From Halobacillus massiliensis (lineage in GTDB: Bacteria > Bacillota > Bacilli > Bacillales > Halobacillaceae), in assembly GCF_900166625.1 (NCBI RefSeq), contig NZ_LT800499.1, forward strand, positions 2,632,357 through 2,696,356: a DNA stretch of 64,000 bases. The letters are read 5' to 3'. Below, one piece after another: positions 4,166 to 60,201 of the stretch. Position 1 is the first letter of the stretch; every line of letters starts with the position of its first letter. The notes under the pieces are model-generated. The model had not been told where the DNA came from. It was given only the letters and a program-made list of their open reading frames with translations, and made no database searches. The position numbers and the translations under genes were made by a program.

Positions 4166-4178
4166 ACGAGGTGTTGAA

Positions 4179-33286: not shown

Positions 33287-33313
33287 TCTTACACCACCTT
33301 TTTCATTCAGAAA

Positions 33314-44910: not shown

Positions 44911-46129
44911 AAGCATTACTCCTATGCGGTGTTTTCTTCAATTCATGCTTAGCGACAGCACGCCGGTGTACTTCGTCAGGACCATCAGCAAGTCTTAATG
45001 TACGAATATTAGCCCAGTTGGCAGCAAGCGGCGTATCATTGCTTACCCCTGCAGCCCCAAACGCTTGTATCGCACGATCGATAACTTTTAGTGCAATATT
45101 TGGAGCAACGACTTTAATCATCGCGATCTCTGCCTTCGCTTCTTTGTTACCGACAGTATCCATCATGTAGGCTGCTTTTAACGTAAGAAGCCTTGCCTGC
45201 TCTATTTCAATTCTTGAGTCAGCAATCCATTCTCGGATAACTCCTTGATCCGCAAGCTTTTTACCGAAGGTTTCACGTTCTTTCACGCGGGCACACATAT
45301 CCTCAAGTGCCCTTTCAGCCGCACCGATCGTTCTCATGCAGTGGTGAATTCTTCCCGGCCCGAGCCGTCCCTGAGCAATAGCAAATCCTTTTCCTTCACC
45401 CCATAGTAGATTAGAGGAGGGAACCCGCACGTCCTTGAATTCAATTTCTGCATGACCGTGAGGAGCATGATCATACCCGAAAACCGGCAGTGTCCGCTTT
45501 ATATGTACTCCTGGTGTTTCAAGCGGGACAAGGATCATTGACTGCTGTTCATATTTTGGAGCATCCGGGTCATTTTTCCCCATGACAATGCTGATTTTGC
45601 ATCTAGGGTCACCGGCACCAGAAGACCACCATTTAGTTCCGTTGATCACATATTCATCACCCACACGCTCAATACTGGTATTTATATTCGTAGCATCCGA
45701 GGAGGCTGCATCAGGTTCTGTCATTGAAAAACATGAGCGGATTTCTCCATCAAGCAGCGGCTTCAGCCACTTTTCTTTTTGTTCATCTGTTCCATAACGG
45801 ACAAGCACTTCCATATTCCCTGTATCAGGAGCCGCACAGTTGAAAACTTCGGGAGCAATGGCCGACCGTCCCATAATCTCACAAAGCGGAGCATATTCCG
45901 TGTTTGTTAACCCTGCGCCATACTCACTATCAGGGAGAAACAAGTTCCAAAGCCCTGCTTCCTTTGCTTTGTTTTTTAATTCATCCATGATTGGCGGAAT
46001 ATCGGCAAAACGATCTTGAGAATTTAATTGTTCATTGTATACAGCTTCGTTTGGATAGATATGCTCTTCCATAAAAGAAGTGAGCTTTTCCTGGAGATCA
46101 CTCACCTTTTCTGAATAGGTAAAATCCAT
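44900..46129 (-). CDS. Acyl-CoA dehydrogenase, ACAD10/11-like
   Basis: A 409-residue acyl-CoA dehydrogenase of a divergent branch. Instead of the usual Y-E-G-T-x-E-I it has [15 protein letters not shown] near residue 390, as in the ACAD10/ACAD11-type enzymes; the flavin segment is [12 protein letters not shown] and G-T-K-W-W-S-S-G. This group includes enzymes for long, branched or hydroxylated acyl-CoAs. The ATG is preceded by GGAGGGCACGT. It overlaps the following SDR gene and comes 22 bases after a MaoC gene. Confidence 0.92.
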
Positions 46130-46151
46130 TACGTGCCCTCCTATCGGCTTG

Positions 46152-46565
46152 TTATACGATCATGCGCTTATTAAAAACGACTTCTCCTTTAATCACATCT
46201 TTTTCATCCTGATTTACGGCTTTTACGCTAAATTTCAGTTCATCTCCGTCTTCCTCGTCCAGTACTGCATGCAGGCTGATCACATCATTCAGGAAAACCA
46301 TCCCTCTAAAGCGAATCGCATAATCCTGAATAAATCCTTCCCCATAATAAGGAGTAAACAGTTTGGCCAGATTTCCCATCGTCCACATTCCATGTGCGAT
46401 AATTCCTGGAAGTCCAGCTTTCTCTGCTTCTTCATCAATGGTATGGATTGGATTAAAATCCCCTGAAGCTCCAGCATATTTAATAAGATCAAGCCTTGAA
46501 ACCGGAGCTAACGTAACCGGTTCTAATTCATCTCCAGGCTTGAGATTCTCAATAAGAGCGGTCAT
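46152..46565 (-). CDS. MaoC-type hydratase subunit
   Basis: A 137-residue single hotdog domain of the MaoC (R-specific enoyl-CoA hydratase) type. The hydratase signature is visible in [14 protein letters not shown] near residues 31-44, with the catalytic Asp and His, then [11 protein letters not shown] near 55. The ATG overlaps the preceding gene by 4 bases (ATGA). The preceding gene encodes a second hotdog protein, so the two probably form a heterodimer in which this one is catalytic, as known for bulky acyl-CoA substrates in actinobacteria. Confidence 0.9.
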
Positions 46566-46996
46566 ACGGTCATCCCCTTTCGGACGGCTTCAGTTATAAT
46601 AACGACCTGTTCTTCAGAGAATATTAGATTTCCTTCTAAATCATCTCCGTACCTTTTAACTTTCAGGAAGCCCATATTTCCGCTTTTGCCGTTTTTTTCA
46701 AAGTAATCTTTTACTTCCGTATAACAGGAAATCTCTTCTCCTACATAAAGCGGCCGTTCATAGTGATAGATTTGCTCGCCATGGATGAGTCCTTTCTTCG
46801 GCAAGTTAAGCTCTTCAATCTCTCCGTAATCAAATACTCGTGGAAATGTCGGAGGAGCGACGTTCCTTTTGTACTTCTCCACATCTATAAAAATTGGGTG
46901 CGGATCTCCAATCGCTTCTGCAAACTTTTTCACCGCACCTCTTTCTACAGCATTTTTCACTTTATTGGATCGTTTACCAATCGCATCTTCAAACAT
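46562..46996 (-). CDS. MaoC-like dehydratase N-terminal-type (FAS1-DH) subunit
   Basis: A 144-residue hotdog protein of the MaoC dehydratase N-terminal type. Typical segments are V-K-K-F-A-E-A-I-G-D-P-H-P-I-F near residue 23, P-P-T-F-P-R-V near 50 and G-E-Q-I-Y-H-Y-E-R-P-L-Y-V-G-E near 75. This part usually lacks the catalytic pair and shapes the acyl pocket. It is coupled by a 4-base overlap to the catalytic MaoC gene. The ATG follows GAAGGAGGATGGCTT. Heterodimer formation is inferred from order and family. Confidence 0.88.
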   Translation of the reverse strand: MFEDAIGKRSNKVKNAVERGAVKKFAEAIGDPHPIFIDVEKYKRNVAPPTFPRVFDYGEIEELNLPKKGLIHGEQIYHYERPLYVGEEISCYTEVKDYFEKNGKSGNMGFLKVKRYGDDLEGNLIFSEEQVVIITEAVRKGMTV

Positions 46997-47014
46997 AAGC
47001 CATCCTCCTTCAAA

Positions 47015-47779
47015 TTAGTCTTTAGGACCGCCGGCTACATAAATGACTTGACCGTTTACAAAAGAAGACCTTTCATCGGCATAAAAAGCTACAGCATTTG
47101 CAATATCTTCAGGCTTTCCGCTGCGGCCGACCGGAATCTTTTCTACACTGGCTTTTACGAGGTCTTCAAATGAAATACCAATCCGGGCAGCTGTCTGCTG
47201 AGTCATTTCTGTCTCAATAAATCCCGGTGCGACTGCATTTGCTGTAATGTTGTACTTTCCCAGTTCAATAGCCAGTGTTTTAGTAAATCCCTGCAAGCCT
47301 GCTTTTGCTGTCGCGTAATTTGCCTGTCCCCTGTTTCCCAGTGCCGAGGTAGATGAAATATTTATAATACGTCCGTATTTTTGTTCGACCATATACTTTT
47401 GACAGGCACGTGCTGCATTAAAAGAACCTTTTAAGTGGACATCCATGACAGTATCCCAGTCAGACTCGGTCATCTTAAAGAGCATATTATCACGAATAAC
47501 ACCGGCGTTATTTACAAGAATGTCGAGTGAACCAAATTGCTCATGTACTTCCTGTGCTGCTTTTTCTACCTGTTCAAAATCTACTACATTGGCTGTCTTG
47601 CAATAAATATCAAAGCCTTCTTCCTTAAACTCGCTTTCGACTTCCTGCAATGCTTCTTCGTTAATATCTATGACCGCGACTTTTGCGCCTTCTTCAGCAA
47701 ACCGGCGGGCGATGCCTTTTCCAATTCCCCGGCTTCCACCGGTAATAAAAGCGGTTCGATTTTCAAATGTTTTTTCCAT
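47015..47779 (-). CDS. SDR, 3-oxoacyl reductase-like (FabG-like)
   Basis: A 254-residue SDR closest in pattern to FabG-type reductases: T-G-G-S-R-G-I-G near residue 12, N-N-A-G-V-I near 90, I-S-S-T-S-A-L catalytic Ser near 140 and Y-A-T-A-K near 155, then T-A-N-A-V-A-P-G-F-I-E-T. In a degradation cluster it would run as a 3-hydroxyacyl-CoA dehydrogenase. It is the second gene of the TetR-controlled operon, after an acyl-CoA dehydrogenase gene. The ATG follows AAGGGAGTG. Three SDR genes in one cluster suggest a substrate with more than one oxidisable group. Confidence 0.9.
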   Translation of the reverse strand: MEKTFENRTAFITGGSRGIGKGIARRFAEEGAKVAVIDINEEALQEVESEFKEEGFDIYCKTANVVDFEQVEKAAQEVHEQFGSLDILVNNAGVIRDNMLFKMTESDWDTVMDVHLKGSFNAARACQKYMVEQKYGRIINISSTSALGNRGQANYATAKAGLQGFTKTLAIELGKYNITANAVAPGFIETEMTQQTAARIGISFEDLVKASVEKIPVGRSGKPEDIANAVAFYADERSSFVNGQVIYVAGGPKD

Positions 47780-47801
47780 ATCCCTACACTCCCTTAATTG
47801 A

Positions 47802-48971
47802 TTAGCCGATTTTCACATGACCTTTTAACAAGTTTCTTGAAATGATTAAGCGCTGGATCTCATCTGTTCCGTCATAAATTCTCCACAGACGAGCTTCTCT
47901 GTACCATCGTTCAATTGGAAGTTCTCTCGTATACCCCATTCCACCATGAATTTGCAGAACACGATCGACAACGTTATTCCCCATATTGGACCCGTAAAGC
48001 TTGGCCATGGAAGCATAATGACGGTTGTCTTCTCCCTGGTCTAATGTAAATGCAGCATTTAAGACGAGCCATTTGGCTGCTTCAATTTCTACTGCAGAAT
48101 CGGCAATCTGCCACTGAATCGCCTGACGTGTAGCAATAGGCTTTCCAAAGGTTTCACGCTCGTTGGCGTAATCTATCGCCATATTAAGCAGTCTTTCAGC
48201 AGCTCCAACCGCACGTGCACCGACAACCCAGCGGGCAAAGCCTATCCACTCAAGCCCCAGGTCATATCCTTTATTCAGTTCACCTAAGATGTTTTCTTCT
48301 GGAACCCTCACATTATCGAAAACAAGAGCGGCCGGTCCCCATTCGCCCATTGTATGAATATATTCTGATTTCCAGCCCATGGATCGGTCGGCGATAAAGC
48401 AGGTAACCCCTTCCCTTCCGCCGGAGGATTTATGTAAATCTTTGTCTGTAATCGCGATGACCATAACGAAGTCGGCTTCATTTCCCCCAGTTATAAATGT
48501 TTTTTCTCCATTTAGCACCCATTCATTTCCTTCTTTCACGGCCGTCATCCGCAGACTTCTTGTATCCGACCCCGCCCCCGGTTCTGTCATAGCAAAACAG
48601 GATTTCTTTTCACCATCAATGGTTGGTATAAGATACTTCTGTTTCTGTTCTTCATTTCCATAATATAAAATATTGTCGGCAGAGCCTCCGAATTGGAAGG
48701 GTACAAATGTTCTGGCGACTTCCATCTGAACAATGGCAAGCATCATCTGTCCTAAGTCGGCTCCCCCATATTCTTCTGGTGTATTTATTCCCCAGAAGCC
48801 TGCTTCTTTCGCTTTTAACTGTAACTCTTTCATTTTTCCTTCCGGAAGACTTGGCCTTCCTTCTCTTTCGTTTCGAAGCACATCATTTTCTAAGGGAATT
48901 AATTCTTTTTCTACAAATCTACGAATTGTTTTCTTTACCATTTCCTGCTCATCTGTTAAACGCAAATGCAT
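47802..48971 (-). CDS. Acyl-CoA dehydrogenase (first gene of TetR-controlled operon)
   Basis: A 389-residue acyl-CoA dehydrogenase. Motifs: F-A-M-T-E-P-G-A-G-S-D near residue 128, N-G-E-K-T-F-I-T-G-G near 155, Q-I-H-G-G-M-G-Y near 345 and catalytic-region I-Y-D-G-T-D-E-I-Q with Asp in place of the usual Glu after Tyr. In most families the base is the Glu of Y-E-G-T; here Y-D-G-T suggests an acidic substitute or a base elsewhere. The ATG at 48971 has only a weak GGGGAT ribosome site. The TetR site A and a -10 box lie just upstream. Confidence 0.92.
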   Translation of the reverse strand: MHLRLTDEQEMVKKTIRRFVEKELIPLENDVLRNEREGRPSLPEGKMKELQLKAKEAGFWGINTPEEYGGADLGQMMLAIVQMEVARTFVPFQFGGSADNILYYGNEEQKQKYLIPTIDGEKKSCFAMTEPGAGSDTRSLRMTAVKEGNEWVLNGEKTFITGGNEADFVMVIAITDKDLHKSSGGREGVTCFIADRSMGWKSEYIHTMGEWGPAALVFDNVRVPEENILGELNKGYDLGLEWIGFARWVVGARAVGAAERLLNMAIDYANERETFGKPIATRQAIQWQIADSAVEIEAAKWLVLNAAFTLDQGEDNRHYASMAKLYGSNMGNNVVDRVLQIHGGMGYTRELPIERWYREARLWRIYDGTDEIQRLIISRNLLKGHVKIG

Positions 48972-49012
48972 GATTGTATCCCCAATCTCATAAGTATTTT
49001 GATACCGGCAGC

Positions 49013-49038
49013 AAACATACCTACCGGTTAGTATGTTT
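49013..49038. promoter_or_regulatory. TetR operator candidate A (AAACATAC...GTATGTTT)
   Basis: A 26-base palindrome with two mismatched central pairs around ACCGGT. Its right half is the same as that of site B at 42242. It covers the predicted transcription start of the operon beginning at 48971. Confidence 0.7.
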
Positions 49039-49041
49039 TAT

Positions 49042-49047
49042 TTTATA
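49042..49047 (-). promoter_or_regulatory. -10 box of the TetR-controlled operon
   Basis: TATAAA on the minus strand, immediately upstream of operator A; a -35 box is not clear (TTTTTC at 16 bases). Confidence 0.4.
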
Positions 49048-49278
49048 CTATTGCAAATTTTGCGAAAAAACAACCTAATTTTTAGAATTTTTTGGTATTA
49101 ACGTTATAGTGATAAAAGTTTGTAATCCATAAAATAGAAAAAAGGCCGATTTAATGCAGCCTTCACCTTCTCTATAAAATATTTATTTTTGAACTCTTCT
49201 CGTATCTGTTCTGTTTATCTTGTGTGAAGAACCATAATTCAGACAAACTTGAGATTATACAACTTGCTGATATCAAAA
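49048..49278. other. Intergenic region between lysine and TetR clusters
   Basis: AT-rich. It holds the upstream promoter part of the TetR-controlled operon and a weak AAGGC/GCCTT hairpin near 49145. I see no gene. Confidence 0.5.
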
Positions 49279-49321
49279 AAAGCTCGAGGACGTTATCATA
49301 ACAATCCCTCAAGCTTTTTTT
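49279..49321 (-). terminator. Terminator after lysine dehydrogenase gene
   Basis: Stem AAAAAAAGCT-GAGG / CCTC-AGCTTTTTTT with a long loop; T-run on the minus strand. Confidence 0.8.
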
Positions 49322-49325
49322 CTGT

Positions 49326-50474
49326 CTAGATTCTTTTTTCGTTTATAACGACTCCTCTTTTTGCCATTTCTACAATATATAAATTCCCAGGCACAATTTG
49401 TTCAGGGGGGCAGACACCTTTTTTGGTAATCGCCTGACTGCCGATCATTTGAGCGACAACTGAAATCGTGTTTGCGGTTGCTCTGGCCATAGCCGTAACA
49501 TTATTTTCACGATCCTTGTATGTTACCATTTCATATTGATATGTCGTGTCCTTCTCTTGTTTTCTGCCTCCGACACAGACACGAAGGAGGACAGCATCAT
49601 CTTTGTCTCTTAAATTAACGATAGGATCCAAGGTTTTAAGCAAAACCTCTCTTGGTTTCACCTTAACTCCTGCCACTTCCACTTCATAATCATTCCGGGT
49701 CAGCTGCAGATCGACTAATAGTTTCATTTTTTCCGCATGGCCTCTGTAACGAATCGTTTTGTATTCGAGTGTATCAATTGCTGGATAAGATTTTAACAGT
49801 GTTGACGTTCCCCCTGAAGTATGAAAAGCCTCTAAAGGACCGAACCTTTCAAAGTGCAGCTGTTCAATTTCCGTGAGTGATTCCACATCGACCAGCCGAC
49901 CGTTACGAATGATCGTGGAAGGGTCTGTATAGTGATCGAGCAGACCTTCCATAGAAAATACGTGATTATATTCAAGAGGCGGTTCAGGCTGAACAGGGAT
50001 CCCACCTACAAAAAGGCGAATCGATCTCAGTTCTTCCAGCTTACTTGCACCATAGCCGGATAAAATATTTATCATCCCCGGTGCTACCCCGAGGTCAGGA
50101 ATAATGGTGACACCGGCTGCTTTTGCCTGGTCGTTCAATTCCAGGACCTGGTCGGTAATATGGCCGATGTGTCCCCCGAGGTCAACTGAGCTGACTCCTA
50201 CTTTGATTGCGGTTTCTGCAACTATTTTATTAAAAGAATAAAATAATGCATTAATTACGACATCATATTGCTTCATGAAAGCAGCTAAATCTTCAGTATT
50301 TCCAGCATCCACCTGATGAGCTTTTATCTTCGGCGAGTCAATGATCTGGCAGACAGCCTCTGCTCTTTTTATATCTATGTCCGCAAGACCTACTTTTTGT
50401 ACGCCTGCACTTTTCACTAAGTCCCGTGCCGCTTCTTTCCCCATTAAACCAGATCCTAAAACAGCTACTCTCAT
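49326..50474 (-). CDS. lysDH: L-lysine 6-dehydrogenase (saccharopine dehydrogenase-like)
   Basis: NAD-dependent oxidative deamination of lysine at the 6-amino group to 2-aminoadipate semialdehyde (cyclising to piperideine-6-carboxylate); 382 residues. The Rossmann start is [15 protein letters not shown]. Conserved stretches I recognise from Geobacillus lysine dehydrogenase include [40 protein letters not shown] and H-T-S-G-G-T-S-T-L. The start is ATG 50474 behind AAGGAGTG; a GTG three codons earlier overlaps the ribosome site. It is the last gene of the four-gene minus-strand lysine operon. High similarity by memory, not by search. Confidence 0.9.
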
Positions 50475-50507
50475 ATGCCGCACTCCTTTATTACGTAATC
50501 TCTCCCA

Positions 50508-52016
50508 TTACTCTACGTCGATCTGGGCCCTCTGGAGCTTGCCGCTAAAGTCTACATAAACAGCTTTCCATTCGGTAAATACATCAAGAGCAGCTACCCC
50601 TGAATCCCGATGGCCATTTCCAGTACCTTTAGTTCCTCCAAACGGCAGATGAATTTCTGCGCCTGTCGTTCCAGCATTAATATAGACAATACCTGTATCT
50701 AAATCACGCTGTGCCGCGAATACTTTATTAACATCACGGGTGAAAATAGAGCTTGATAACCCGTATTCCACACTGTTATTTATCTCTATGGCTTCTTCAA
50801 AGCTTTTTACAGGAATTAATGAAACAACAGGACCAAAAATCTCTTCCTGGGCGATCCGCATATCTCCGCTTACATCTGTGAACAGGGTGGGAGCAAAGTA
50901 ATTCCCGTTTGCATGTGCACCATTTTCCATAATATATCCGCCGGTTAGCAGTTTGGCTCCTTCTTTTTTGCCAACTTTAATATAGGACTTAATTTTCTCC
51001 AGCCCATGGCGATTAATAATCGGTCCTACTTTAATAGATTCATCTAATCCATCACCAATTGATAATTTGGAAATTTCAGTAAGCAAACGTTTTTCGAGTT
51101 CATCTTTTACCCTTTCATGGACCATCACCCGGCTGCAGGCGGTGCATCGCTGGCCGCTCGTTCCATAACCGCTCCAGAGAATTCCTTCCACGGCTAAGGA
51201 GAGATCGGCATCATCCATCACGATAACAGCGTTTTTCCCACCCATTTCCAGTGACACTTTTTTCAGCCGCGCACCGCATTTACTTGCAATACTTCTCCCG
51301 ACTTCATTTGATCCTGTAAAAGAGATGACGCGAATAGTATCCTGTTCGATCATCGCCTCTCCTACAGATGAACCTGATCCGAATACTACATTGATGACTC
51401 CATCAGGAAGACCGGCTTCTTCGAAAATTTTGGCAAGCTCATAGGCCATGATCGGAGTTTCCGTCGACGGTTTCCAGACGACAGCATTTCCAGACACAAT
51501 CGCAGGGAAAGACTTCCATGTCGCAATCGCTATTGGAAAATTCCAAGGAGTGATGATGCCCACTACTCCAACAGGAGCCCGAACACTCATTGCAAACTTA
51601 TTTTTCAACTCAGAAGGGGTTGTCTGTCCAAAGAGACGACGTCCTTCTCCCGCCATATAATATGCCATATCAATGCCTTCCTGAACTTCTCCGCGAGCTT
51701 CTTCAATAACTTTACCGTTTTCCATCGTAAGCAGCTGGGATAAATACTCTTTTCTTTCCTTCATAATCATTCCTACACGATAAAGGACTTCCGCACGCTG
51801 TGGTGCAGGGACTAGCGCCCAATTCTTTTGTGCTTTTTTCGCTGCTTCTGCTGCTGCTTCCACATCTTCCGGGGCGGATAAAGGCACTTGTACGAGAGTT
51901 TCTGAATTAGCCGGATTACTAACCTCTGTATACGTACCTCCTGCAGGCTCCTGCCAGTTTCCATTAATAAAGTTCTTCAATTTTTCAACTTGAATGAGTT
52001 TTCGGTTCATTGCCAT
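50508..52016 (-). CDS. Aldehyde dehydrogenase, probable 2-aminoadipate semialdehyde dehydrogenase
   Basis: A 502-residue NAD(P)-dependent aldehyde dehydrogenase with P-W-N-F-P-I near residue 160, catalytic-region E-M-G-G-K-N and nucleophile Cys291 in G-Q-R-C-T-A-C, and the C-terminal F-G-G-T-K-G-T-G. Next to lysine dehydrogenase its most likely substrate is 2-aminoadipate 6-semialdehyde, giving 2-aminoadipate; it might also oxidise glutarate semialdehyde later in the same pathway. Two starts are possible, ATG 52016 (3 bases after AGGAGG) and ATG 52010 (9 bases after). Substrate is inferred from context. Confidence 0.88.
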   Translation of the reverse strand: MAMNRKLIQVEKLKNFINGNWQEPAGGTYTEVSNPANSETLVQVPLSAPEDVEAAAEAAKKAQKNWALVPAPQRAEVLYRVGMIMKERKEYLSQLLTMENGKVIEEARGEVQEGIDMAYYMAGEGRRLFGQTTPSELKNKFAMSVRAPVGVVGIITPWNFPIAIATWKSFPAIVSGNAVVWKPSTETPIMAYELAKIFEEAGLPDGVINVVFGSGSSVGEAMIEQDTIRVISFTGSNEVGRSIASKCGARLKKVSLEMGGKNAVIVMDDADLSLAVEGILWSGYGTSGQRCTACSRVMVHERVKDELEKRLLTEISKLSIGDGLDESIKVGPIINRHGLEKIKSYIKVGKKEGAKLLTGGYIMENGAHANGNYFAPTLFTDVSGDMRIAQEEIFGPVVSLIPVKSFEEAIEINNSVEYGLSSSIFTRDVNKVFAAQRDLDTGIVYINAGTTGAEIHLPFGGTKGTGNGHRDSGVAALDVFTEWKAVYVDFSGKLQRAQIDVE

Positions 52017-52031
52017 ATTCCTCCTAAAGGA

Positions 52032-53675
52032 TTATTTTTGTCGAAGCCTTAGCTGTTCAATCGTTGAGGTGAATGAAATTTCCTCTGGGTCATTCTCTAC
52101 TTCAATTACTGATGGCCGCTTTTCTAATAGAGCATGGAGAAGGGCCTTTTTGAACTCTTCAGAGGATTTCACGTAAAACCCAGCAGCACCAAGCTCTTTA
52201 GCTATCTCAAAGAAAGGAACCCGGCCTAAGTTTGTGCCAATCGTTTTGTAAGGAAAGTGAATTTCCTGATGCATACGGATCGTGCCATACATGCGATTGT
52301 TAAAAACGATGCTGATCACAGGGATTTGATAGCGGACAGCCGTCTCAATTTCCTGCATCGTCATCATAAAACCGCCATCTCCCGAAAGGGACACGACCTT
52401 TTGGTCAGGACACGCAAGCTTTACACCTAAAGCCGCGGGCATGCCGTAACCCATTGCCCCCGATGTAGGGCCAACGTATGTTTTTTTCTGATTAAATTGA
52501 TAAAAAGCATGAAGCCATCCAGCAAAATTACCGGCATCGTTCGTCACTATCGCATCTCTCGGCAGATGCCTCTGCAGCAGTGTAATGATATGATGATTTA
52601 CAGTTGGTTCACCTTTTGGCATAAGAGTAGCCAGATAGCTTTTATTCCCCTTCTCCGCCCATTTTTCCCAGCTGGGCAGCTTCAATTTAAACAGTGTATT
52701 CAAGCATTCTTTAGCATCAGCCACAACTCCAAGATAAGGAGGATACACTTTTCCAAGTGTGCTGCTGTCAATATCAATATGGAGCAATGGCTGGTTTTTA
52801 TTTAACAGGGAATAATCCTGTGTTGTAACTTCAGAAAGCCTCGTCCCAATGGCAACAATTGTATCGGCTTCTTTCACATAATTTAGAATGCTGGGACTCG
52901 TCCCTAAACCAAGGTGGCCGGCATAAAGTGAATGATTGTTTGGAAACACATCATGCCTGCGAAAAGCGGCCATTACCGGAATGGAGAACTTTTCTGCGAA
53001 TTGCAGCAGGGCTTCTTCACCACCTGCACTCTTTACACCACCGCCCGCAATTAAGAGCGGCTGCTTTGATTTTTTCAACAGCTCCTCGATAAGTGCGATT
53101 TCGCGTGTGGAGGGACAAGGAGACGGCCGAGTAACAGGATCTCCAAACTCCATAACAGCCGACTGTTTTAAAAGGTCTTCCGGAAGGGAAATGACGACAG
53201 GGCCTGGCCGTCCAGTCATAGCAATTCTTAAAGCACGCTGAACAATTTCAGGTACCCTCTCTGCCTCCTGGATTTCTACTGTCCATTTGGAGATCGGTGC
53301 AAAAAATCGATCTAAGTCTACTTCCTGAAACCCTTCTCTTCCCCGAAAGCGGCTGTCTACCTGGCCAAGAAATACAACTAACGGAGTAGAGTCCTGATAG
53401 GCTGTATGAACGCCTATGGCCAAATTCGCCCCGCCTACTGCCCTTGTTGCCATTACTACTCCCGGTCTGCCGCTTGCTTTAGCAAAACCTTCTGCCATAA
53501 AAGCGGCACCACCTTCGTGCCTCGTCGATATAAGTTCCATTTCCGGCTCATCATAAATAGCATCCATAAGAGGGAGATAACTTTCTCCAGGGACGCAGAA
53601 AGCCTTCTGGATTCTTTCAAGTTTTAGACATTGAATAATTGCCTTGGAACTCGACATCCATTCGCCATGCCCCAT
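52032..53675 (-). CDS. ThDP-dependent enzyme (acetolactate synthase-like), candidate 2-oxoadipate decarboxylase
   Basis: A 547-residue thiamine diphosphate enzyme of the acetohydroxyacid synthase/2-oxoacid decarboxylase superfamily. The cofactor-activating Glu54 is in T-R-H-E-G-G-A-A, and the ThDP/Mg motif runs from G-D-G-G-F near residue 428 to N-N near 456. A central domain (about 190-330) is of the FAD-fold type. No ilvN or ilvC neighbours are present. It sits between the aminotransferase and aldehyde dehydrogenase genes in the lysine operon, where the missing chemistry is decarboxylation of 2-oxoadipate to glutarate semialdehyde. The ATG follows GGGAGGTTCTTAA and adjoins the aminotransferase stop. 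The reaction is a hypothesis. Confidence 0.85.
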   Translation of the reverse strand: MGHGEWMSSSKAIIQCLKLERIQKAFCVPGESYLPLMDAIYDEPEMELISTRHEGGAAFMAEGFAKASGRPGVVMATRAVGGANLAIGVHTAYQDSTPLVVFLGQVDSRFRGREGFQEVDLDRFFAPISKWTVEIQEAERVPEIVQRALRIAMTGRPGPVVISLPEDLLKQSAVMEFGDPVTRPSPCPSTREIALIEELLKKSKQPLLIAGGGVKSAGGEEALLQFAEKFSIPVMAAFRRHDVFPNNHSLYAGHLGLGTSPSILNYVKEADTIVAIGTRLSEVTTQDYSLLNKNQPLLHIDIDSSTLGKVYPPYLGVVADAKECLNTLFKLKLPSWEKWAEKGNKSYLATLMPKGEPTVNHHIITLLQRHLPRDAIVTNDAGNFAGWLHAFYQFNQKKTYVGPTSGAMGYGMPAALGVKLACPDQKVVSLSGDGGFMMTMQEIETAVRYQIPVISIVFNNRMYGTIRMHQEIHFPYKTIGTNLGRVPFFEIAKELGAAGFYVKSSEEFKKALLHALLEKRPSVIEVENDPEEISFTSTIEQLRLRQK

Positions 53676-54848
53676 TTAAGAACCTCCCTTCATGAGCTTC
53701 TTCATACGTTGCACCGCTTCCTCAAGCCTGCCGGAAGGTACCGATAACGACAGACGGATAAACCCTTCTCCCCCGGATCCAAACGCCGGACCCGGAGTGA
53801 GAATGACCCCGGCTTCTTCCAGCATTTTTTGCGTAAAAGACTGGGACGTATAGCCTTCTGGCACTTTGGCCCACACAAAAAAAGTTCCTCTTGACCTCTT
53901 CACATCCATGCCTATTTCCTTTAAAGCAGGAAGGACGGCCTTCATTCTTTTTTCGTAAATTTCATTGTTTTCTTTAACGGATGAAAAATCACTATTTAAA
54001 GCTGCCGCCGCGGCTTTTTGTATAGCTAAAAATTGGCTCGTATCCATATTACTTTTTACAATAGACAGGGATTTTATCAGATCTTTATTTCCTGCTACAT
54101 AGCCGATTCTCCAGCCTGTCATGTTAAAACTCTTTGATAAAGAGCCAAATTCAACACAAATGTCCTTAGCGCCTTTGACTTGGAGAATACTCGGTGCCTT
54201 AAAGCCGTCAAATGTGACAAGACCATACGCCGAGTCATGGGCTATTAGTAAATGTTCGGACCTTGCAAATTCCACGGCTTCTTTAAAAGTGGAAAGATTC
54301 ACTGCCGCTCCTGTTGGATTGCCAGGATAATTCAGCAGCATCAACTTGGCCCTTTGAAGATCAGGCTTCGTTAACTTGCTGAATAAGGGCATGTACCCAT
54401 TCGCTTCGTCAAGCGGAAGGGAGATCATAGAGCCATAAGCTAAGTGAATTGCAGACTGATAGACAGGATAGCCGGGGTCCGGGACGAGCACCCCGTCTCC
54501 TGGATCAAGAACAGAACTGATCAAATGAGCTATTCCTTCCTTTGAACCAATTAATGCAAGCACTTCAGTGTCCGGATCCACTTTCACGTCATAATGCCTT
54601 TTATAAAAATCAGCCACAGCCTGTCTGAATTCCAGACAGCCTTCATATGGAGAATACTTGTGGTTGGACGGATTTTTGGCCTCTTCTGCGAGACGATCAA
54701 TAATAAAGGATGGCGTGGGGAGATCTGGCGCCCCAATTCCTAAATCAATGACGTCAACACCCTGCTCCTGAAGCTCTTTTTTCTTCTGATGAAAAACGGA
54801 AAACAGATAAGGAGGCAGACTGTTCACCTGTTTTGAGCAATACTTCAT
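53676..54848 (-). CDS. Class I/II PLP aminotransferase, probable 2-aminoadipate aminotransferase
   Basis: A 390-residue fold-type I aminotransferase. The PLP lysine is in G-S-L-S-K-S-F-N-M-T-G-W-R near residue 236, with N-Y-P-G-N-P-T-G near 175 and the C-terminal substrate Arg in F-I-R-L-S-L near 370. It resembles LL-diaminopimelate/aspartate-type aminotransferases. As the first gene of the lysine operon, next to genes giving 2-aminoadipate, it probably makes 2-oxoadipate. The ATG follows GGGGGTGAG. Stop and next start are adjacent. Substrate is inferred from the operon. Confidence 0.88.
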   Translation of the reverse strand: MKYCSKQVNSLPPYLFSVFHQKKKELQEQGVDVIDLGIGAPDLPTPSFIIDRLAEEAKNPSNHKYSPYEGCLEFRQAVADFYKRHYDVKVDPDTEVLALIGSKEGIAHLISSVLDPGDGVLVPDPGYPVYQSAIHLAYGSMISLPLDEANGYMPLFSKLTKPDLQRAKLMLLNYPGNPTGAAVNLSTFKEAVEFARSEHLLIAHDSAYGLVTFDGFKAPSILQVKGAKDICVEFGSLSKSFNMTGWRIGYVAGNKDLIKSLSIVKSNMDTSQFLAIQKAAAAALNSDFSSVKENNEIYEKRMKAVLPALKEIGMDVKRSRGTFFVWAKVPEGYTSQSFTQKMLEEAGVILTPGPAFGSGGEGFIRLSLSVPSGRLEEAVQRMKKLMKGGS

Positions 54849-55011
54849 TTTCTCACCCCCAGATCAATAGACTCTTATAGGTTTGTCCCATACTATCCTA
54901 TTAAGGGAACACAAGATTCATGATTATCTCTTAAAAATAGGTGGAAATGGCTCATATTTTTCTCATCTTGGAATATAGTGATAGTGTAGGACAACCCTGC
55001 ACATTAGATCC

Positions 55012-55056
55012 CAAGCCAGTTGGATTCATACGTCGTATGGGTTCATCTGGCTTTTT
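55012..55056 (+). terminator. Leader hairpin with T-run before CoA-transferase gene (possible attenuator)
   Basis: An imperfect stem of about 20 pairs, AAGCCAG...CATACG / CGTATG...CTGGCTT, with a TCG loop region followed by TTTTT, 17 bases before the start of the CoA-transferase gene. It could end leader transcripts or terminate transcription before the gene; no known riboswitch class is recognised upstream. Confidence 0.55.
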
Positions 55057-55072
55057 CCTGTAGAGAAAGGAA

Positions 55073-56266
55073 GTGATCGTTCTGACAGCCTTAAAAGGAA
55101 CCCGTGTCCTTGATTTATCAAGAGTGCTCGCGGGTCCCTACTGCTCGATGATTTTAGGAGACCTTGGTGCTGAAGTCATTAAAGTCGAAGCTCCGGGGGG
55201 AAGCGATGACACAAGAAAATGGGGTCCTCCTTTTCAAGATGGGGTAAGTGCCTATTATTTATGCGCTAATCGCAGTAAAAAGAGTCTTACCGTAAACTTA
55301 AAAACAGAAAAAGGCCGCGAGATTATAAAAAAACTCGCAGCCGAGAGTGATGTCGTTCTTCACAATTTTAAAACAGGAACTATGGAACGTTTAGGACTTG
55401 ATTATGAAGTACTTAACGAGATTAACCCCAAAATAGTCTACTGCTCAATTACAGGATTCGGTGAAAATGGTCCATATAAAAACCTCCCGGGTTATGATTT
55501 CATTATTCAGGCGATGAGCGGCCTGATGAGCATAACAGGAGATGAAAAATCCGGCCCGCAAAAACTTGGTGTGGCTATTACCGATATTTTAACTGGACTT
55601 TATGCGTGTATTGGAATCGAGGCGGCTCTGCTTGAAAGACATCAATCGGGACGCGGCCAGAAAATGGATCTGTCTCTTTACGATGCAGCGGTGAGCTCAC
55701 TCGTCAATATTGGCAGCAATTATTTAATGTCAGGCGCACTTCCCAAAAGACTCGGAAATCAACATGCCAACATCGTTCCCTATCAGACATTCTGCTCAAG
55801 TAATGGTGAAATGGTCATTGCTGTCGGCAATGATAAACAGTTCGCTGCTCTTTGTGAAATCATCGAAAGAACCGACCTTTCGTTAGATGAGAGATTTAGG
55901 ACAAACCCTGACAGGGTGGCCAACAGATCAACCCTTATCCCTCTTTTGCAAAAAGAGCTTTTAAAAAAACCGACCTTATACTGGAAGGATAGCTGCCAGC
56001 AATCCGGAATACCATTTGGAGCGATTCAAACAGTTGAGGATCTTATAGAGGATGAACAGCTAAAGGAGCGCAAAATGTTTATTACTACAGACCATCCAAA
56101 AGCAGGCAAGATTAAAATGATAGGCAGTCCATTAAAACTGGGAAGGACGCCACCTTCATTTACCGCTCCTCCTCCAGATCCAGGGGACCATACGGAGGAA
56201 ATTTTGCGTGGATTAGGCTATTCCAAAGAAGAGATTTCTCATTTACAGCAAATGAACACAATATAG
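55073..56266 (+). CDS. Class III CoA-transferase, probable succinyl-CoA:glutarate CoA-transferase
   Basis: A 397-residue CaiB-family enzyme that closely follows the pattern of mammalian SUGCT (succinyl-CoA:glutarate/HMG CoA-transferase): D-D-T-R-K-W-G-P-P-F near residue 45, I-V-P-Y-Q-T-F near 235, a D-K-Q-F-A-A-L-C-E-I-I segment and catalytic Asp171 in A-I-T-D-I-L-T-G. It would turn glutarate plus succinyl-CoA into glutaryl-CoA for the dehydrogenase encoded 10 bases downstream. Start: GTG 55073 is given, but GGAAGTGA is better spaced for a rare CTG at 55082, which yields the typical short N-terminus. It is divergent from the lysine operon with a leader hairpin between them. Confidence 0.88.
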   Translation: MIVLTALKGTRVLDLSRVLAGPYCSMILGDLGAEVIKVEAPGGSDDTRKWGPPFQDGVSAYYLCANRSKKSLTVNLKTEKGREIIKKLAAESDVVLHNFKTGTMERLGLDYEVLNEINPKIVYCSITGFGENGPYKNLPGYDFIIQAMSGLMSITGDEKSGPQKLGVAITDILTGLYACIGIEAALLERHQSGRGQKMDLSLYDAAVSSLVNIGSNYLMSGALPKRLGNQHANIVPYQTFCSSNGEMVIAVGNDKQFAALCEIIERTDLSLDERFRTNPDRVANRSTLIPLLQKELLKKPTLYWKDSCQQSGIPFGAIQTVEDLIEDEQLKERKMFITTDHPKAGKIKMIGSPLKLGRTPPSFTAPPPDPGDHTEEILRGLGYSKEEISHLQQMNTI

Positions 56267-56276
56267 GAGGAGTTTC

Positions 56277-57464
56277 ATGAACTTTGATTACAGCGCTGAA
56301 CAACTGATGCTTCGGAAAACAGTACGGGATTTTACGGATAAGGAAATTATGCCATACATCGGAGAATGGGATGCGAAAGGTTACTTTAATAAGGAGCTCT
56401 TAAAAAAGCTGGCTCACTTAGGCTTAATGGGTGTGTGTATTCCTGAAAAGTATGGGGGCAGCGGCATGGATTATAATGCACTCGCTATAGTTTGTGAGGA
56501 ACTTGAACGCGGAGACACCGCTTTTCGCACAGCCGTTTCCGTCCATACCGGCTTGAACAGTATGTCAATTTTACAATGGGGTACCGAAGAGCAGAAACAA
56601 AAATATCTCATACCACAGGCAAAAGGAGATAAAATCGGTGCCTTTGGGTTAACCGAACCAGGAGCAGGATCTGATGTTGCATCCTTACAGTCTACTGCAA
56701 AAAAAGAAGGTGAATATTATGTGTTAAACGGGCAGAAAACGTGGATTTCACTATGTGACACTGCCGACCATTTCCTCGTATTTGCTTACACAGACAAATC
56801 TAAGAAGCATCATGGGATCTCAGCGTTTATCGTGGAAAGAACGATGGATGGGTTTACATCTAAAGCAACAAAAGGCAAGCTTGGCATCCGGGCAGGTAAT
56901 ACTGGTGAGCTGTTTTTTGATCAGGTTAAGGTTCCTAAAGAAAACCTCGTTGGCAAAGAAGGTGAGGGTTTTAAGATCGCCATGGCGGCACTCGATAACG
57001 GCCGTTTTACAGTCGCTGCCGGTGCCTGCGGCCAGATCATGGCCTGTCTTGAAGCAAGTACAGAGTATTGTCATGAGCGCGAGACTTTTGGAAAGGAAAT
57101 CGGCCGTCACCAGCTCGTTCAGCAGATGATTGCCAAAATGGAAGCAGGGCTGCAAATGAGCCGTCTTCTTGTTTACCGGGCAGGAGAATTAAAAAACAAA
57201 GGGGTTCGTAATACGAGGGAAACTTCTTTAGCGAAATGGCAGGCCTGTGACTTTGCCAATCAGTCGGCAGATGATGCCGTCCAGATCCACGGGGCTTACG
57301 GATATTCAAATGAATATCCTGTCGAACGCTATTTACGTAATTCTAAGGCACCTGTTATATATGAAGGAACGAGAGAGATTCATACGATTATGCAGGCGGA
57401 GTATGCACTCGGATATCGTAAAGATAAGCCATTGAATAAAATGCTGCCGGCGTGGGAGGGGTAA
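56277..57464 (+). CDS. Glutaryl-CoA dehydrogenase
   Basis: A 395-residue acyl-CoA dehydrogenase of the glutaryl-CoA type, making crotonyl-CoA and CO2. Evidence: Arg84 and Ser88 in F-R-T-A-V-S occupy the positions of Arg94 and Ser98, which bind the distal carboxylate in the human enzyme; the catalytic base is Glu363 in Y-E-G-T-R-E-I-H; F-G-L-T-E-P-G-A-G-S-D is the flavin segment. It follows a SUGCT-like CoA-transferase gene by 10 bases with GGAGGAG before the ATG. A near-copy is at 33348. Decarboxylation is inferred from residues and context. Confidence 0.9.
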   Translation: MNFDYSAEQLMLRKTVRDFTDKEIMPYIGEWDAKGYFNKELLKKLAHLGLMGVCIPEKYGGSGMDYNALAIVCEELERGDTAFRTAVSVHTGLNSMSILQWGTEEQKQKYLIPQAKGDKIGAFGLTEPGAGSDVASLQSTAKKEGEYYVLNGQKTWISLCDTADHFLVFAYTDKSKKHHGISAFIVERTMDGFTSKATKGKLGIRAGNTGELFFDQVKVPKENLVGKEGEGFKIAMAALDNGRFTVAAGACGQIMACLEASTEYCHERETFGKEIGRHQLVQQMIAKMEAGLQMSRLLVYRAGELKNKGVRNTRETSLAKWQACDFANQSADDAVQIHGAYGYSNEYPVERYLRNSKAPVIYEGTREIHTIMQAEYALGYRKDKPLNKMLPAWEG

Positions 57465-57678
57465 AAGCCTCTACTTTTTGTATCTTATAGAGAAAAAGCT
57501 ATTCCCTTTATCACTTATAAAGGAAAGAGGTTGGAAATCGCTTACTTTGTGCGGGGAGCTGGTCAGCTAGCTCGTTAAATTCGCAAATCTCACCATAGCT
57601 CTATTTCCCACCCTCTTTACGATTAGTGGTATAAACGGAACCCTGGAGTTTCAGTAACCGCTGTCTTCTCTACCTAAT
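57465..57678. other. Intergenic region after glutaryl-CoA dehydrogenase
   Basis: No gene seen. A hairpin CCTTTAT/ATAAAGG lies near 57510 without a T-run. No clear terminator for the CoA-transferase/dehydrogenase operon was found. Confidence 0.5.
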
Positions 57679-57851
57679 GTTCCGTTACTTAAAAAACAAT
57701 AAAGGGCCGGTGGAAACGGCGAGACTCCTATGGGAGGATAGAACAGGGTGAGATCCCGGAGGGCGAAAAGCCCAAGGAAGCTCACCGTTCGCCCATAGAA
57801 AGCGAGTTGTTTCCACAGGCCCGGTTCTCTAAAACAAGGTAAACGGAACTC
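57679..57851. repeat. Structured Bacillaceae-type interspersed repeat
   Basis: A GC-rich island with nested pairing: outer TTCCGTTACTT / AAGGTAAACGGAA, then GGGCC-GTGGAAAC (57704-57717) / GTTTCCAC-GGCCC (57809-57822), CTATGGG (57728-57734) / CCCATAG (57792-57798), GGTGAG (57747-57752) / CTCACC (57781-57786) and a central GGGC-GAAAA-GCCC. The wording GAGACTCCTATGGG, GGTGAGATCCCG and GGAAGCTCACCG matches a repeated element I know from many Bacillaceae genomes, where it lies between genes. Function unknown. Confidence 0.8.
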
Positions 57852-58025
57852 TCTTCATGTTTAAGTTAGGATCAAAGAAGCCTGCTCTGGAGATAAGACA
57901 TAATGAAGACCCGGAGCTTTTCACCCCAGGAAGTTCATCGTTCCGTTCGTTCATGGAGTCTCTAACGATGCAAACCAGAAGTTGTTTTATTTATGGCGGA
58001 ATACTAGCCAATAAAACATCTGCCA
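57852..58025. other. Intergenic remainder before lipoprotein gene
   Basis: A plus-strand frame of 62 codons (57857-58045) lacks a ribosome site and overlaps the lipoprotein gene; it is not taken as real. Nothing else is seen. Confidence 0.5.
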
Positions 58026-58598
58026 TCAGTTTATTAATTCAGTGATTTTCCTGTTTAGCCCTCCGTCATCAAAATAATTAAATCTATCTATTTTGTGTCT
58101 GTCGTCTACATCAGCCCTGCCTGTCACTTTTGCAGAGTAGGACTCCTGCTCAGTTTTCAACAGGACATCAGCTGAAAAGTGAAATTGGTTTTCGTTTTCC
58201 TCATCTTGCTGAATATCTGAATCAGTTAATTCTATCGAGTAGTTGCCTTCCTCTAAATCCACTTGATAATTCAAAGCGTAAAGCTGTATAAATTTCTCAT
58301 ACATGCTTTCAGTAAAGTATTTTCCATATTTCTTTTTCATGTATTCCTCTAACTGTTTATTTTTTGGTACCGGTTTTGTTTCTCCATCTTTACCAACCAC
58401 ACTGCTATCTCCCGGATCCCCCACCTTATCAAGCATCTCCTCGTCAGGTCCGGTAAATTGGTTCTTCAAAACCTGTTCGATATTATTAACGTCTTCATGA
58501 TCAGTTGATTTAGCTGGCTGTCCAGAAGAGCACCCCGAGATACTTAGCACCATGGCCAGCAGACTCCAAAACAGTATATATAACCACCCTCTTTTCAT
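58026..58598 (-). CDS. Lipoprotein of unknown function, 190 residues
   Basis: A secreted lipoprotein: basic start, hydrophobic segment and lipobox S-I-S-G-C at residues 19-23, followed by a Ser/Gly/Gln linker. The mature part has charged helices (residues 40-100, with E-E-Y-M-K-K-K-Y-G-K-Y-F) and then beta-rich sequence (Y-S-I-E-L-T-D-S-D-I, F-H-F-S-A-D-V-L-L-K), which might be a small ligand-binding or assembly domain. Strongly acidic overall. I do not recognise the family. The ATG is preceded by AAGGGGG. It is single, divergent from the NlpC/P60 gene, 334 bases away. Confidence 0.8.
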   Translation of the reverse strand: MKRGWLYILFWSLLAMVLSISGCSSGQPAKSTDHEDVNNIEQVLKNQFTGPDEEMLDKVGDPGDSSVVGKDGETKPVPKNKQLEEYMKKKYGKYFTESMYEKFIQLYALNYQVDLEEGNYSIELTDSDIQQDEENENQFHFSADVLLKTEQESYSAKVTGRADVDDRHKIDRFNYFDDGGLNRKITELIN

Positions 58599-58932
58599 GA
58601 TTTACCCCCTTCAGATGAAATGATTTGTTACTACTTATACGGGAAAAACATTTAAAAGTTTCGTATAAAGAAAAGTGACGTTTTCCCTTTAGATGCTTCC
58701 ACTGAATTATTCATATATAGGTTAGAGTTTTAATTAAAATAAGTTCAGTCTCAAATATTACACAGACGTAAACAGATTATTAATTTAGCTTAATCTTTTT
58801 GAAACCTGCTGAGGTATTTTCTTTGATAGACTAGGGACTAGTTCGGAAAAAGACGACATAAATCTTCCTTTTCCAAGCTGAAACTACAAAATCCTTATCA
58901 AAAGGATTATTTATCACAGGAGGAATTTTTGT
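58599..58932. other. Divergent intergenic region before NlpC/P60 gene
   Basis: AT-rich, no gene. A hairpin AATCCTT/AAGGATT lies 25 bases before the NlpC/P60 start in the presumed leader. No c-di-AMP (ydaO) riboswitch signature was found although such riboswitches are common before cell-wall hydrolases. Confidence 0.5.
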
Positions 58933-59703
58933 ATGGTATTATCGTCGAAATCAATGAGAAAGTATGCAGTTTCGTCTGCTCTCGTTACTTCTCTTGCCCT
59001 AACACCGCTTATAAGTGACAAGGTCTCTGCACAGGCAAACCCGGAGGCCGATTCTAATACAGAAAGTGTAACTGTCCAGGATAACAGTCTTCTGAAAAAC
59101 GGAGATCGCGGCGCTGATGTAGAGACGTTACAAGAGGATCTAGAAACACAGGGTTATTATACATATAATCTTGACGGAATTTTTGGTCCAATCACAGAGA
59201 AAGCTGTAAAAGAATTTCAGGCAGATCATGGACTAACTGAAGATGGGGTTGTTGGCCCTAGAACAAAGAATGCACTATCCGCTTCGCCGGTTGAGACTGA
59301 AGATGAGGCACCGGCAGGAGAAGAAACCGCCGATGAAGCAGCTTCACAGTCTGATGTTGTTTCTATTGCGGAAGACTTAATCGGGACTCCATATGTTTGG
59401 GGAGGAACTACTCCAGATGGATTTGACAGCAGCGGTTTCATTCAGTATGTGTTTGACCAGGTTGGTGTAGAACTTGATAGAAAAGAAAGCGACATGTGGC
59501 TCAATAACGGAGTGGAAGTAGACTCTCCGGAAGTTGGAGACGTTATTTTCTTCGAAGGCACTTATGACACGGAAGGAGCTTCTCACAGCGGGATTTACAT
59601 TGGAGACAATAAGATGATCCATGCGGGAAGTGACGGCGTAGAAGTCGCAGATATTACGATTGATTATTGGCAGGACCATTACCTTGGCGTAAAATCATTT
59701 TAA
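58933..59703 (+). CDS. Secreted peptidoglycan-binding NlpC/P60 protein with Cys-to-Ser active site
   Basis: A 256-residue exported protein: signal peptide (1-34, S-A-Q-A end), PG_binding_1 domain (52-116, with G-D-R-G-A-D-V and G-I-F-G-P-I-T), acidic linker (118-142) and NlpC/P60 domain (143-256, Y-V-W-G-G-T-T-P-D-G-F-D). The catalytic Cys expected after that segment is Ser166 (codon AGC, 59428-59430); a TGC to AGC change needs one base. The other likely active-site residues, His218 and His230, are present. It may therefore be a wall-binding pseudoenzyme, or a weak Ser enzyme. The ATG follows AGGAGG. Very acidic, as usual for exported proteins of halophiles. Confidence 0.88.
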   Translation: MVLSSKSMRKYAVSSALVTSLALTPLISDKVSAQANPEADSNTESVTVQDNSLLKNGDRGADVETLQEDLETQGYYTYNLDGIFGPITEKAVKEFQADHGLTEDGVVGPRTKNALSASPVETEDEAPAGEETADEAASQSDVVSIAEDLIGTPYVWGGTTPDGFDSSGFIQYVFDQVGVELDRKESDMWLNNGVEVDSPEVGDVIFFEGTYDTEGASHSGIYIGDNKMIHAGSDGVEVADITIDYWQDHYLGVKSF

Positions 59704-59716
59704 GAAATCAACAGCA

Positions 59717-59753
59717 AAAGAAACCGGTGCATCACTCACCGGTTTCTTTTTTT
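59717..59753 (+). terminator. Terminator of the NlpC/P60 gene
   Basis: Stem AAAGAAACCGGTG / CACCGGTTTCTTT with a 7-base loop and TTTTTT. Confidence 0.88.
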
Positions 59754-59808
59754 GGCATCTTCTTTGAGCTGGTAACATATGGTTTGTCATATAAGGAAGG
59801 TGTCTTTT

Positions 59809-60201
59809 ATGCAAAATTATCATTTGCTCTGCCAGCAGTTCGCTCGGATTCTAAATGGCACACCTAAAGTAAATAACGGGGCCTGCTCTGTGGAGCTGGA
59901 GAGAAATCTTAACGTTACGATTCAAGGCCGGCCGAGTAAAAGTGAGCTTCATGCTGAGATGATGTTTGAATCTCTTGATCATAACGGTAATGCCTTAAAT
60001 ATGGGGGAAATCGTTCTCTTAGAGGAAGAAATCCCCATTTTCATAAAAGTTCTCGTGAAAAATGGAATAATAATCAGCGCATTGCACAATCACTGGCTTT
60101 TTACAAACCCAGTAATTCTATACCTTCACTTCCAATCGGTTGAGCCTCCTTTAGATTTTGCTTATAAAACAGCGGAAGCCCTTCATACATTAAAAGAATA
60201 A
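59809..60201 (+). CDS. DUF1259 (LppY/LpqO-like) protein
   Basis: A 130-residue protein of the DUF1259 type. Recognisable segments are A-E-M-M-F-E-S near residue 58, G-E-I-V-L-L-E-E-E-I and the motif A-L-H-N-H-W-L-F near 97 followed by L-Y-L-H-F near 112. It lacks a signal peptide here, unlike the mycobacterial lipoprotein relatives, and is only one copy of the domain. The start is ATG 59809, with AAGGAAGGTG upstream; an earlier in-frame ATG at 59779 has no ribosome site. It is convergent with the ArAE-type gene, without a visible terminator. Function of the family is unknown to me. Confidence 0.82.
   Translation: MQNYHLLCQQFARILNGTPKVNNGACSVELERNLNVTIQGRPSKSELHAEMMFESLDHNGNALNMGEIVLLEEEIPIFIKVLVKNGIIISALHNHWLFTNPVILYLHFQSVEPPLDFAYKTAEALHTLKE

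Follow-up and report, generated by a model that had tools for sequence, protein, structure and literature searches.

A cluster of six genes in Halobacillus massiliensis most likely represents a conserved lysine-to-crotonyl-CoA module of Bacillota, in which a thiamine diphosphate (ThDP)-dependent enzyme would act as a non-oxidative 2-oxoadipate decarboxylase. The cluster lies in a 64,000-nucleotide stretch of contig NZ_LT800499.1 (the window) and encodes a predicted L-lysine 6-dehydrogenase (Lys6DH), an aldehyde dehydrogenase (ALDH1), the ThDP enzyme, an aminotransferase (AT), a CoA-transferase (CoAT) and a putative glutaryl-CoA dehydrogenase (GCDH). On the sequence evidence we put at roughly three in four the probability that this locus serves L-lysine catabolism via 2-aminoadipate and 2-oxoadipate to crotonyl-CoA, with the ThDP enzyme as the decarboxylase. 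In the proposed route, Lys6DH would oxidise the 6-amino group of lysine, ALDH1 would convert the resulting semialdehyde (or piperideine-6-carboxylate) to 2-aminoadipate, AT would turn this into 2-oxoadipate, and the ThDP enzyme would yield glutarate semialdehyde by non-oxidative decarboxylation. The semialdehyde would then be oxidised to glutarate by ALDH1 again or by an unlinked enzyme of succinate-semialdehyde dehydrogenase (SSADH) type (in some relatives by a linked second aldehyde dehydrogenase, ALDH2), after which CoAT would charge the free glutarate with CoA from succinyl-CoA and GCDH would produce crotonyl-CoA. We infer each of these reactions, and most of all what the ThDP enzyme takes up and what it releases.

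An earlier note on this DNA had described six adjacent genes forming a self-contained pathway. The six open reading frames (ORFs) are indeed intact in the ORF listing of the window, at the positions it had claimed, and their Pfam domains are consistent with the families of all six. On the minus strand the order is AT, ThDP enzyme, ALDH1 and Lys6DH, with the AT and ThDP genes abutting, while CoAT and GCDH form a divergent pair on the plus strand. The description as self-contained needs qualifying: seven steps are asked of six genes, and no gene in the window is dedicated to the oxidation of glutarate semialdehyde.

Conservation of the six-gene module

In a family sample of 44 genomes (thresholds of E ≤ 1e-100 for the ThDP enzyme and E ≤ 1e-20 for Lys6DH), the ThDP enzyme and Lys6DH occur in the same 32 genomes, and all six genes lie within 20 kb in each of these (31 of 31 family loci and the window). 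The CoAT–GCDH pair is found on the other side in five of the family loci, all from one genus (g6, Thalassobacillus-type). Co-occurrence in relatives had been set beforehand as a check on the lysine-to-crotonyl-CoA reading, which came through it with added support.

Across the order (397 genomes; E ≤ 1e-150 for the ThDP enzyme and E ≤ 1e-60 for Lys6DH; scoring was limited to the three or four best candidates of each genome, so that the counts are lower bounds), the ThDP enzyme was detected in at least 78 genomes and Lys6DH in at least 74, with both present in at least 61 against 14.5 expected (hypergeometric probability 6.5e-43, a figure that ignores phylogeny). The two genes are no more than 10 kb apart in 50 of these 61. 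Lys6DH is present as well in 37 of 70 ThDP stretches from beyond the family, and these 37 contain ALDH1 in 36 cases, AT in 32, GCDH in 22 and CoAT in 20; all six genes lie within 20 kb in 16, and two stretches with GCDH and without CoAT (L158 and L169) end at an edge right beyond which CoAT sits. The grouping of the six genes is not chance, given its recurrence within 20 kb both throughout the family and in these 16 outside stretches.

In genomes that have the ThDP enzyme without Lys6DH, five stretches keep it together with CoAT and GCDH (L213, L216, L221, L222 and L223). Three of them (L221, L222 and L223) are compact ALDH–ThDP–GCDH–CoAT units from genomes in which no Lys6DH reaches E ≤ 1e-60. 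A paralogue locus, L070:6547-19867, has the arrangement AT–ThDP–CoAT–GCDH without Lys6DH or ALDH and is flanked, by eye, by IclR-type, symporter and 5-oxoprolinase-like (PxpA/B/C-like) genes; its substrate is perhaps the lactam of 2-aminoadipate. In another locus, L051 (genome G034, at about 12.2-13.4 kb), Lys6DH matches fall in two frames, reflecting a frameshift or an assembly error.

Evidence for the decarboxylase step

The proposed decarboxylation gains support from the joint absence of the ThDP enzyme and CoAT, from the linked ALDH2 of some relatives and from the lysine-pathway genes that adjoin ThDP homologues in other phyla. When genomes with both Lys6DH and a GCDH match are compared, CoAT (at ≥50% identity) is present in 52 of the 54 that have the ThDP enzyme versus 3 of the 10 that lack it (Fisher p = 6.3e-6, with phylogeny ignored and GCDH matches that can include paralogues). 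The remaining two of the 54, G371 and G390, have a CoAT of 45% and 44% identity right beside GCDH. The Lys6DH-only genomes were rechecked with every candidate scored, which added a CoAT fragment in G098 (2/10 becoming 3/10, and p moving from 4.3e-7 to 6.3e-6) and showed that none of these 13 genomes has a ThDP match exceeding 35% identity. This joint absence is expected if the ThDP enzyme gives a free C5 acid that needs to be recharged with CoA, whereas species without it make glutaryl-CoA directly. Five Lys6DH loci (L229, L231, L233, L239 and L244) have GCDH in the same stretch, without the ThDP enzyme and CoAT, and the best CoAT match in their genomes is ≤44% identical or missing altogether, the pattern that a direct route by 2-oxoadipate dehydrogenase would be expected to leave.

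ALDH2, which is of SSADH type, was found in 17 of 68 loci (4 of 31 in the family and 13 of 37 outside it; named carriers are Thalassobacillus devorans, Virgibacillus oceani, Lentibacillus halodurans and Aquisalibacillus elongatus), and in 14 of the 17 it lies within 150 bp of GCDH. The ALDH2 of L056 scores 600 bits on TIGR01780, for which the cut-off is 646.35. Such a linked gene would be explained by free glutarate semialdehyde and not by a route that forms glutaryl-CoA directly. The cluster of the window holds one ALDH only, and three SSADH-like genes elsewhere in its genome are 51-53% identical to a relative's ALDH2; we infer that the second oxidation falls here either to ALDH1, acting twice, or to one of these three unlinked genes.

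To look beyond Bacillota, we took the best 80 ThDP loci (more matched), comprising 15 from Bacillota and 65 from elsewhere (63 from proteobacteria, one from Desulfuromonadaceae and one labelled Mycobacterium). Unprompted clustering of the neighbouring ORFs of the 65 at 50% identity, with a ThDP cluster that holds 60 of the 65 loci, replaced an earlier clustering over all 80 in which that cluster held only 61. The commonest neighbours were a piperideine-6-carboxylate dehydrogenase (11 loci), an FAD oxidoreductase (7) and a glutarate-CoA-transferase-like protein (7), followed by Lys6DH-like proteins (5) and GCDH (5), level with three further clusters of five, of which two come solely from five Phyllobacteriaceae loci and the third solely from five Comamonadaceae loci. 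Of the 65 loci, 21 carry one or more of the four lysine genes looked for, and 17 of these 21 fall into one 29-row clade of the tree (Shimodaira–Hasegawa-like approximate likelihood ratio support, SH-aLRT, of 98, from a quick method with no bootstrap), with L089, L093, L096 and L126 outside it. All four of the proteobacterial ALDHs tested, out of the 11, exceed the cut-off of 730 for the L-piperidine-6-carboxylate dehydrogenase model NF050084 (804.9-829.8), and the seven CoAT-like neighbours score 521-708.9 on the succinate-glutarate CoA-transferase model NF052585, below its cut-off of 750. The ThDP gene directly follows a CaiB-like gene in the Mesorhizobium, Pseudaminobacter and Phyllobacterium loci (L107-L110 and L115). 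Plasmid records matching the ThDP enzyme numbered 171, of which six were opened: two have it beside an ALDH resembling piperideine-6-carboxylate dehydrogenase, and the rest beside sugar-acid, hydantoinase or transporter genes.

The FAD-dependent oxidoreductase, recognised by eye near the ThDP gene at L112:5045-6250 (minus strand) and in six other proteobacterial loci, is possibly a pipecolate or amino-acid oxidase; the L112 protein has no NCBIfam match at E ≤ 1e-120.

Family, fold and conserved residues of the ThDP enzyme

The ThDP protein belongs to NF006052 (PRK08199, a thiamine pyrophosphate protein family whose reaction is not named), scoring 713.4 against a cut-off of 539. NF005712 (5-guanidino-2-oxopentanoate decarboxylase, cut-off 500) gives 300.5 and 277 bits with the relatives in L070 and L093, and is not among the best 25 families for the window protein, all of which reach at least 279 bits. 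In the AlphaFold model (predicted local distance difference test score, pLDDT, of 90.5), the nearest folds are those of an HKA synthase and of acetohydroxyacid synthases, none of which names the substrate. The closest is BbmA, a ThDP-dependent HKA synthase (PDB 8x3x) with 31-32% identity to the window protein, from which it differs in being a synthase, by its title alone.

Arg77, Arg112, Arg466 and His468 (numbers that trail those of the full ORF by one) are near-invariant across all three sets of ThDP sequences, whereas the acetohydroxyacid synthases in the alignment carry other residues at these positions. A preference for dicarboxylates, if there is any, may consequently belong to the whole subfamily.

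Assignment of the other genes

Lys6DH is the best-supported single assignment in the cluster, as judged from its sequence. Its best solved relative is PH1688 (3abi), which we take to be a lysine 6-dehydrogenase. The ORF list gives a GTG start, and the true start is probably an internal Met at codon 4. The pocket residues modelled for LysEDH of Geobacillus stearothermophilus in the passages available from PMC6697735 (V130, V172, F173, H181, Y238, T240 and R242) are all shared: seven of seven are matched in the window protein under a single constant offset, eight other offsets giving none or one, and the numbering becomes identical when counted from the internal Met. LysEDH differs in that those passages handle it as a lone enzyme and describe no gene cluster.

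For the window proteins we compared NCBIfam scores over the best 25 families where more matched, and within these only the ThDP protein and AT pass a cut-off. ALDH1 reaches at most 541.8 against 770 and scores 423.3 against 730 on NF050084. Where the genome lacks the ThDP enzyme, it still lies in the same stretch as Lys6DH at 9 of 13 loci, in keeping with an enzyme that acts immediately after Lys6DH. AT scores 520.6 on NF006756 (LL-diaminopimelate aminotransferase subfamily, cut-off 507) and falls short of the equivalog TIGR03540 (520.1 against 593.25).

CoAT scores 432.7 against 750 on NF052585, yet this is its best NCBIfam family, and the chains 9br7 and 9br6, titled succinate-hydroxymethylglutarate CoA-transferase, rank second and third among its solved relatives. 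GCDH scores 385.4 against 470 on the glutaryl-CoA dehydrogenase model NF045552 and slightly higher, 389.2 against 640, on acryloyl-CoA reductase (NF042972). In human glutaryl-CoA dehydrogenase we take Arg94 to bind the carboxylate and Glu87 to be its neighbour. The corresponding Arg/Glu motif was found in the window protein, where ELERGDTAFRT aligns with EVERVDSGYRS of a GCDH-like protein in L120 (so called by reading of its sequence, not by an NCBIfam cut-off), and it is not shared by the three other acyl-CoA dehydrogenases of the window that were compared (47802, 23441 and 29291). A second GCDH-like acyl-CoA dehydrogenase at 33348-34559 (minus strand), 82% identical to that of the module, has the same Arg motif and adjoins a gene that by eye resembles a sigma-54-type regulator (31595-33331).

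Table 1 Features of the cluster, with predicted functions and their basis
Feature	Position	Strand	Basis
Lys6DH, predicted L-lysine 6-dehydrogenase (epsilon-deaminating)	49326-50483	-	PF03435 + PF16653
ALDH1, likely 2-aminoadipate-6-semialdehyde/piperideine-6-carboxylate dehydrogenase, with glutarate semialdehyde as a possible second substrate	50508-52016	-	PF00171
ThDP enzyme, proposed 2-oxoadipate decarboxylase	52032-53675	-	NF006052 (PRK08199); three thiamine pyrophosphate (TPP) domains
AT, class I/II aminotransferase, proposed to convert 2-aminoadipate to 2-oxoadipate	53676-54848	-	NF006756
Intergenic region separating the two divergent gene groups	54849-55072	.	Imperfect inverted repeat at 55021-55045
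CoAT, class III (CaiB) CoA-transferase, proposed succinyl-CoA:glutarate CoA-transferase	55073-56266	+	NF052585 as best family; solved relatives
GCDH, acyl-CoA dehydrogenase, proposed glutaryl-CoA dehydrogenase (to crotonyl-CoA)	56277-57464	+	Arg motif; NF045552 below cut-off

Alternative explanations and opposing evidence

The ThDP enzyme might instead be oxidative, in the manner of pyruvate oxidase, and turn 2-oxoadipate directly into glutarate, with a flavin taking up the electrons and handing them on to quinone or oxygen. Such a route would still call for CoAT and free glutarate but not for the second aldehyde oxidation, which fits the single ALDH of the window cluster and the absence of a linked ALDH2 from 51 of 68 loci (a count that also tells against a decarboxylase), and there is a weaker match to the pyruvate oxidase model NF006377 (286 bits, cut-off 742). 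We consider this unlikely, as it leaves the linked SSADH-type gene of the 17 other loci without a role and the closest solved structures are those of the HKA and acetohydroxyacid synthases, not of oxidases. It is similarly improbable that the 2-oxoglutarate dehydrogenase complex converts 2-oxoadipate to glutaryl-CoA, with the ThDP enzyme serving another 2-oxo acid in a side reaction. Mammals use such a lipoamide route (PMC9367764), and the 7 of 10 genomes with Lys6DH and GCDH that lack both the ThDP enzyme and CoAT may do the same. This route needs no CoAT, yet 52 of the 54 ThDP genomes with Lys6DH and GCDH keep one; moreover, loss of CaiB makes Agrobacterium tumefaciens a biotin auxotroph (PMC7645780), which a sufficient direct route should prevent.

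Least credible, and in our view very unlikely, is an acetolactate synthase-like carboligase that takes no part in lysine catabolism and lies here by chance. The nearest named families are mostly acetolactate synthases. The protein reaches only 401.9 of the 538.35 bits required by the biosynthetic acetolactate synthase model TIGR00118, while a different gene of the same genome scores 839.9, which weakens this alternative. Nearly all members of the subfamily have His where the fungal acetohydroxyacid synthase 6wo1 has a Trp (presumably of functional importance there), and the linkage to lysine genes extends across several phyla.

Several further observations weigh against a lysine pathway with a non-oxidative decarboxylase. 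CoAT, GCDH and ALDH1 are all below the curated cut-offs of their proposed functions, and for Lys6DH, the ThDP enzyme and AT no NCBIfam model exceeding its cut-off names the proposed function among the families compared. In the order, Lys6DH is missing from 17 of the 78 genomes with the ThDP enzyme, and the ThDP enzyme from 13 of the 74 with Lys6DH; of the Lys6DH-only genomes, G053 and G382 keep CoAT and GCDH, and G098 has a broken CoAT fragment (69%). A comparison of the ThDP sets revealed no polar residue that those of lysine context preserve and the 47 others mostly lose (the lowest value being 66%). None of the four lysine genes is present in 44 of the 65 non-Bacillota loci, and the neighbour counts there ignore phylogeny (five of the seven CoAT loci are from Phyllobacteriaceae and four of the five GCDH loci from Alcaligenaceae). 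Some relatives, moreover, have sugar-acid or hydantoinase-type genes as neighbours, so that the ThDP subfamily is broader than lysine and not all of one function. The possible action of the 2-oxoglutarate dehydrogenase complex on 2-oxoadipate also counts among these contrary points.

Relation to known pathways

Animals, plants and pseudomonads are known to deal with 2-oxoadipate in other ways. The proposed sequence of reactions resembles the arginine transaminase pathway of AruH/AruI, in which, after an aminotransferase, a ThDP decarboxylase resembling acetolactate synthase acts together with an aldehyde dehydrogenase; there the substrate is 5-guanidino-2-oxopentanoate, and the ThDP relatives in L070 and L093 are well below the cut-off of the corresponding model. 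The D-lysine route of Pseudomonas putida also passes through 2-oxoadipate, from which, according to the passages available from PMC7286885, the iron- and oxygen-dependent HglS makes D-2-hydroxyglutarate. It differs from the proposed route in this step, and we rejected it for the family: a PF07063 (HGLS) gene was found in 0 of 44 family genomes by a search that was positive in 2 of 14 named control genomes. The mammalian DHTKD1 route likewise leads from 2-oxoadipate to glutaryl-CoA with a thiamine enzyme, but there a lipoamide complex gives glutaryl-CoA directly, with no free semialdehyde and no CoA-transferase for the step (PMC9367764).

The closest parallel for the later steps comes from A. 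tumefaciens, where, in the available passages of PMC7645780, the biotin precursor derives from lysine, 2-oxoadipate or glutarate, CaiB (Atu2127) charges free glutarate from succinyl-CoA, and strain C58 has no recognisable copies of key genes for the L-2-hydroxyglutarate route. As in the proposed module, lysine and 2-oxoadipate feed the same product; those passages name no enzyme for 2-oxoadipate to glutarate, and the CoAT of the window is well below the cut-off of the CaiB-named model NF052585. We lean slightly towards the broader view that 2-oxoadipate breakdown has a widespread third solution in Bacillota and Pseudomonadota, a ThDP-dependent decarboxylase that needs neither lipoamide nor oxygen, and that this enzyme may also supply the alphaproteobacterial step from lysine to free glutarate (and on to glutaryl-CoA for biotin), a link to A. 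tumefaciens drawn from the Mesorhizobium, Pseudaminobacter and Phyllobacterium loci.

In the open-access literature we found no report of a ThDP-dependent 2-oxoadipate decarboxylase (weak evidence of novelty, as subscription papers are mostly uncovered) and no paper joining Lys6DH with 2-oxoadipate and glutaryl-CoA. The fate of 2-oxoadipate is where the known lysine pathways part, towards a dehydrogenase complex or HglS, and a simple decarboxylase would, if true, add a third branch. It would also explain why a glutarate CoA-transferase is kept beside GCDH in many bacteria, help to name a large subfamily of 'thiamine pyrophosphate proteins', offer a candidate for the step from 2-oxoadipate to glutarate behind BioZ-type biotin synthesis, and provide an enzyme that could serve the production of C5 chemicals from lysine.

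Other features of the window

No Rfam family reached its gathering threshold within 46000-60000, and a promoter scan of the divergent intergenic region led nowhere; the inverted repeat upstream of the CoAT gene is a possible operator or terminator-like element. The short-chain dehydrogenase/reductase (SDR) and acyl-CoA dehydrogenase genes at 47015-48971 were rejected as members of the module, both being kept (>90% identity) only in L039, the nearest relative, of 33 family stretches. At 2756-5740, a CaiB-family CoA-transferase gene is divergent from a GntR-type regulator and a hydroxymethylglutaryl-CoA (HMG-CoA) lyase-like gene (by eye), perhaps forming another acid-catabolic unit.

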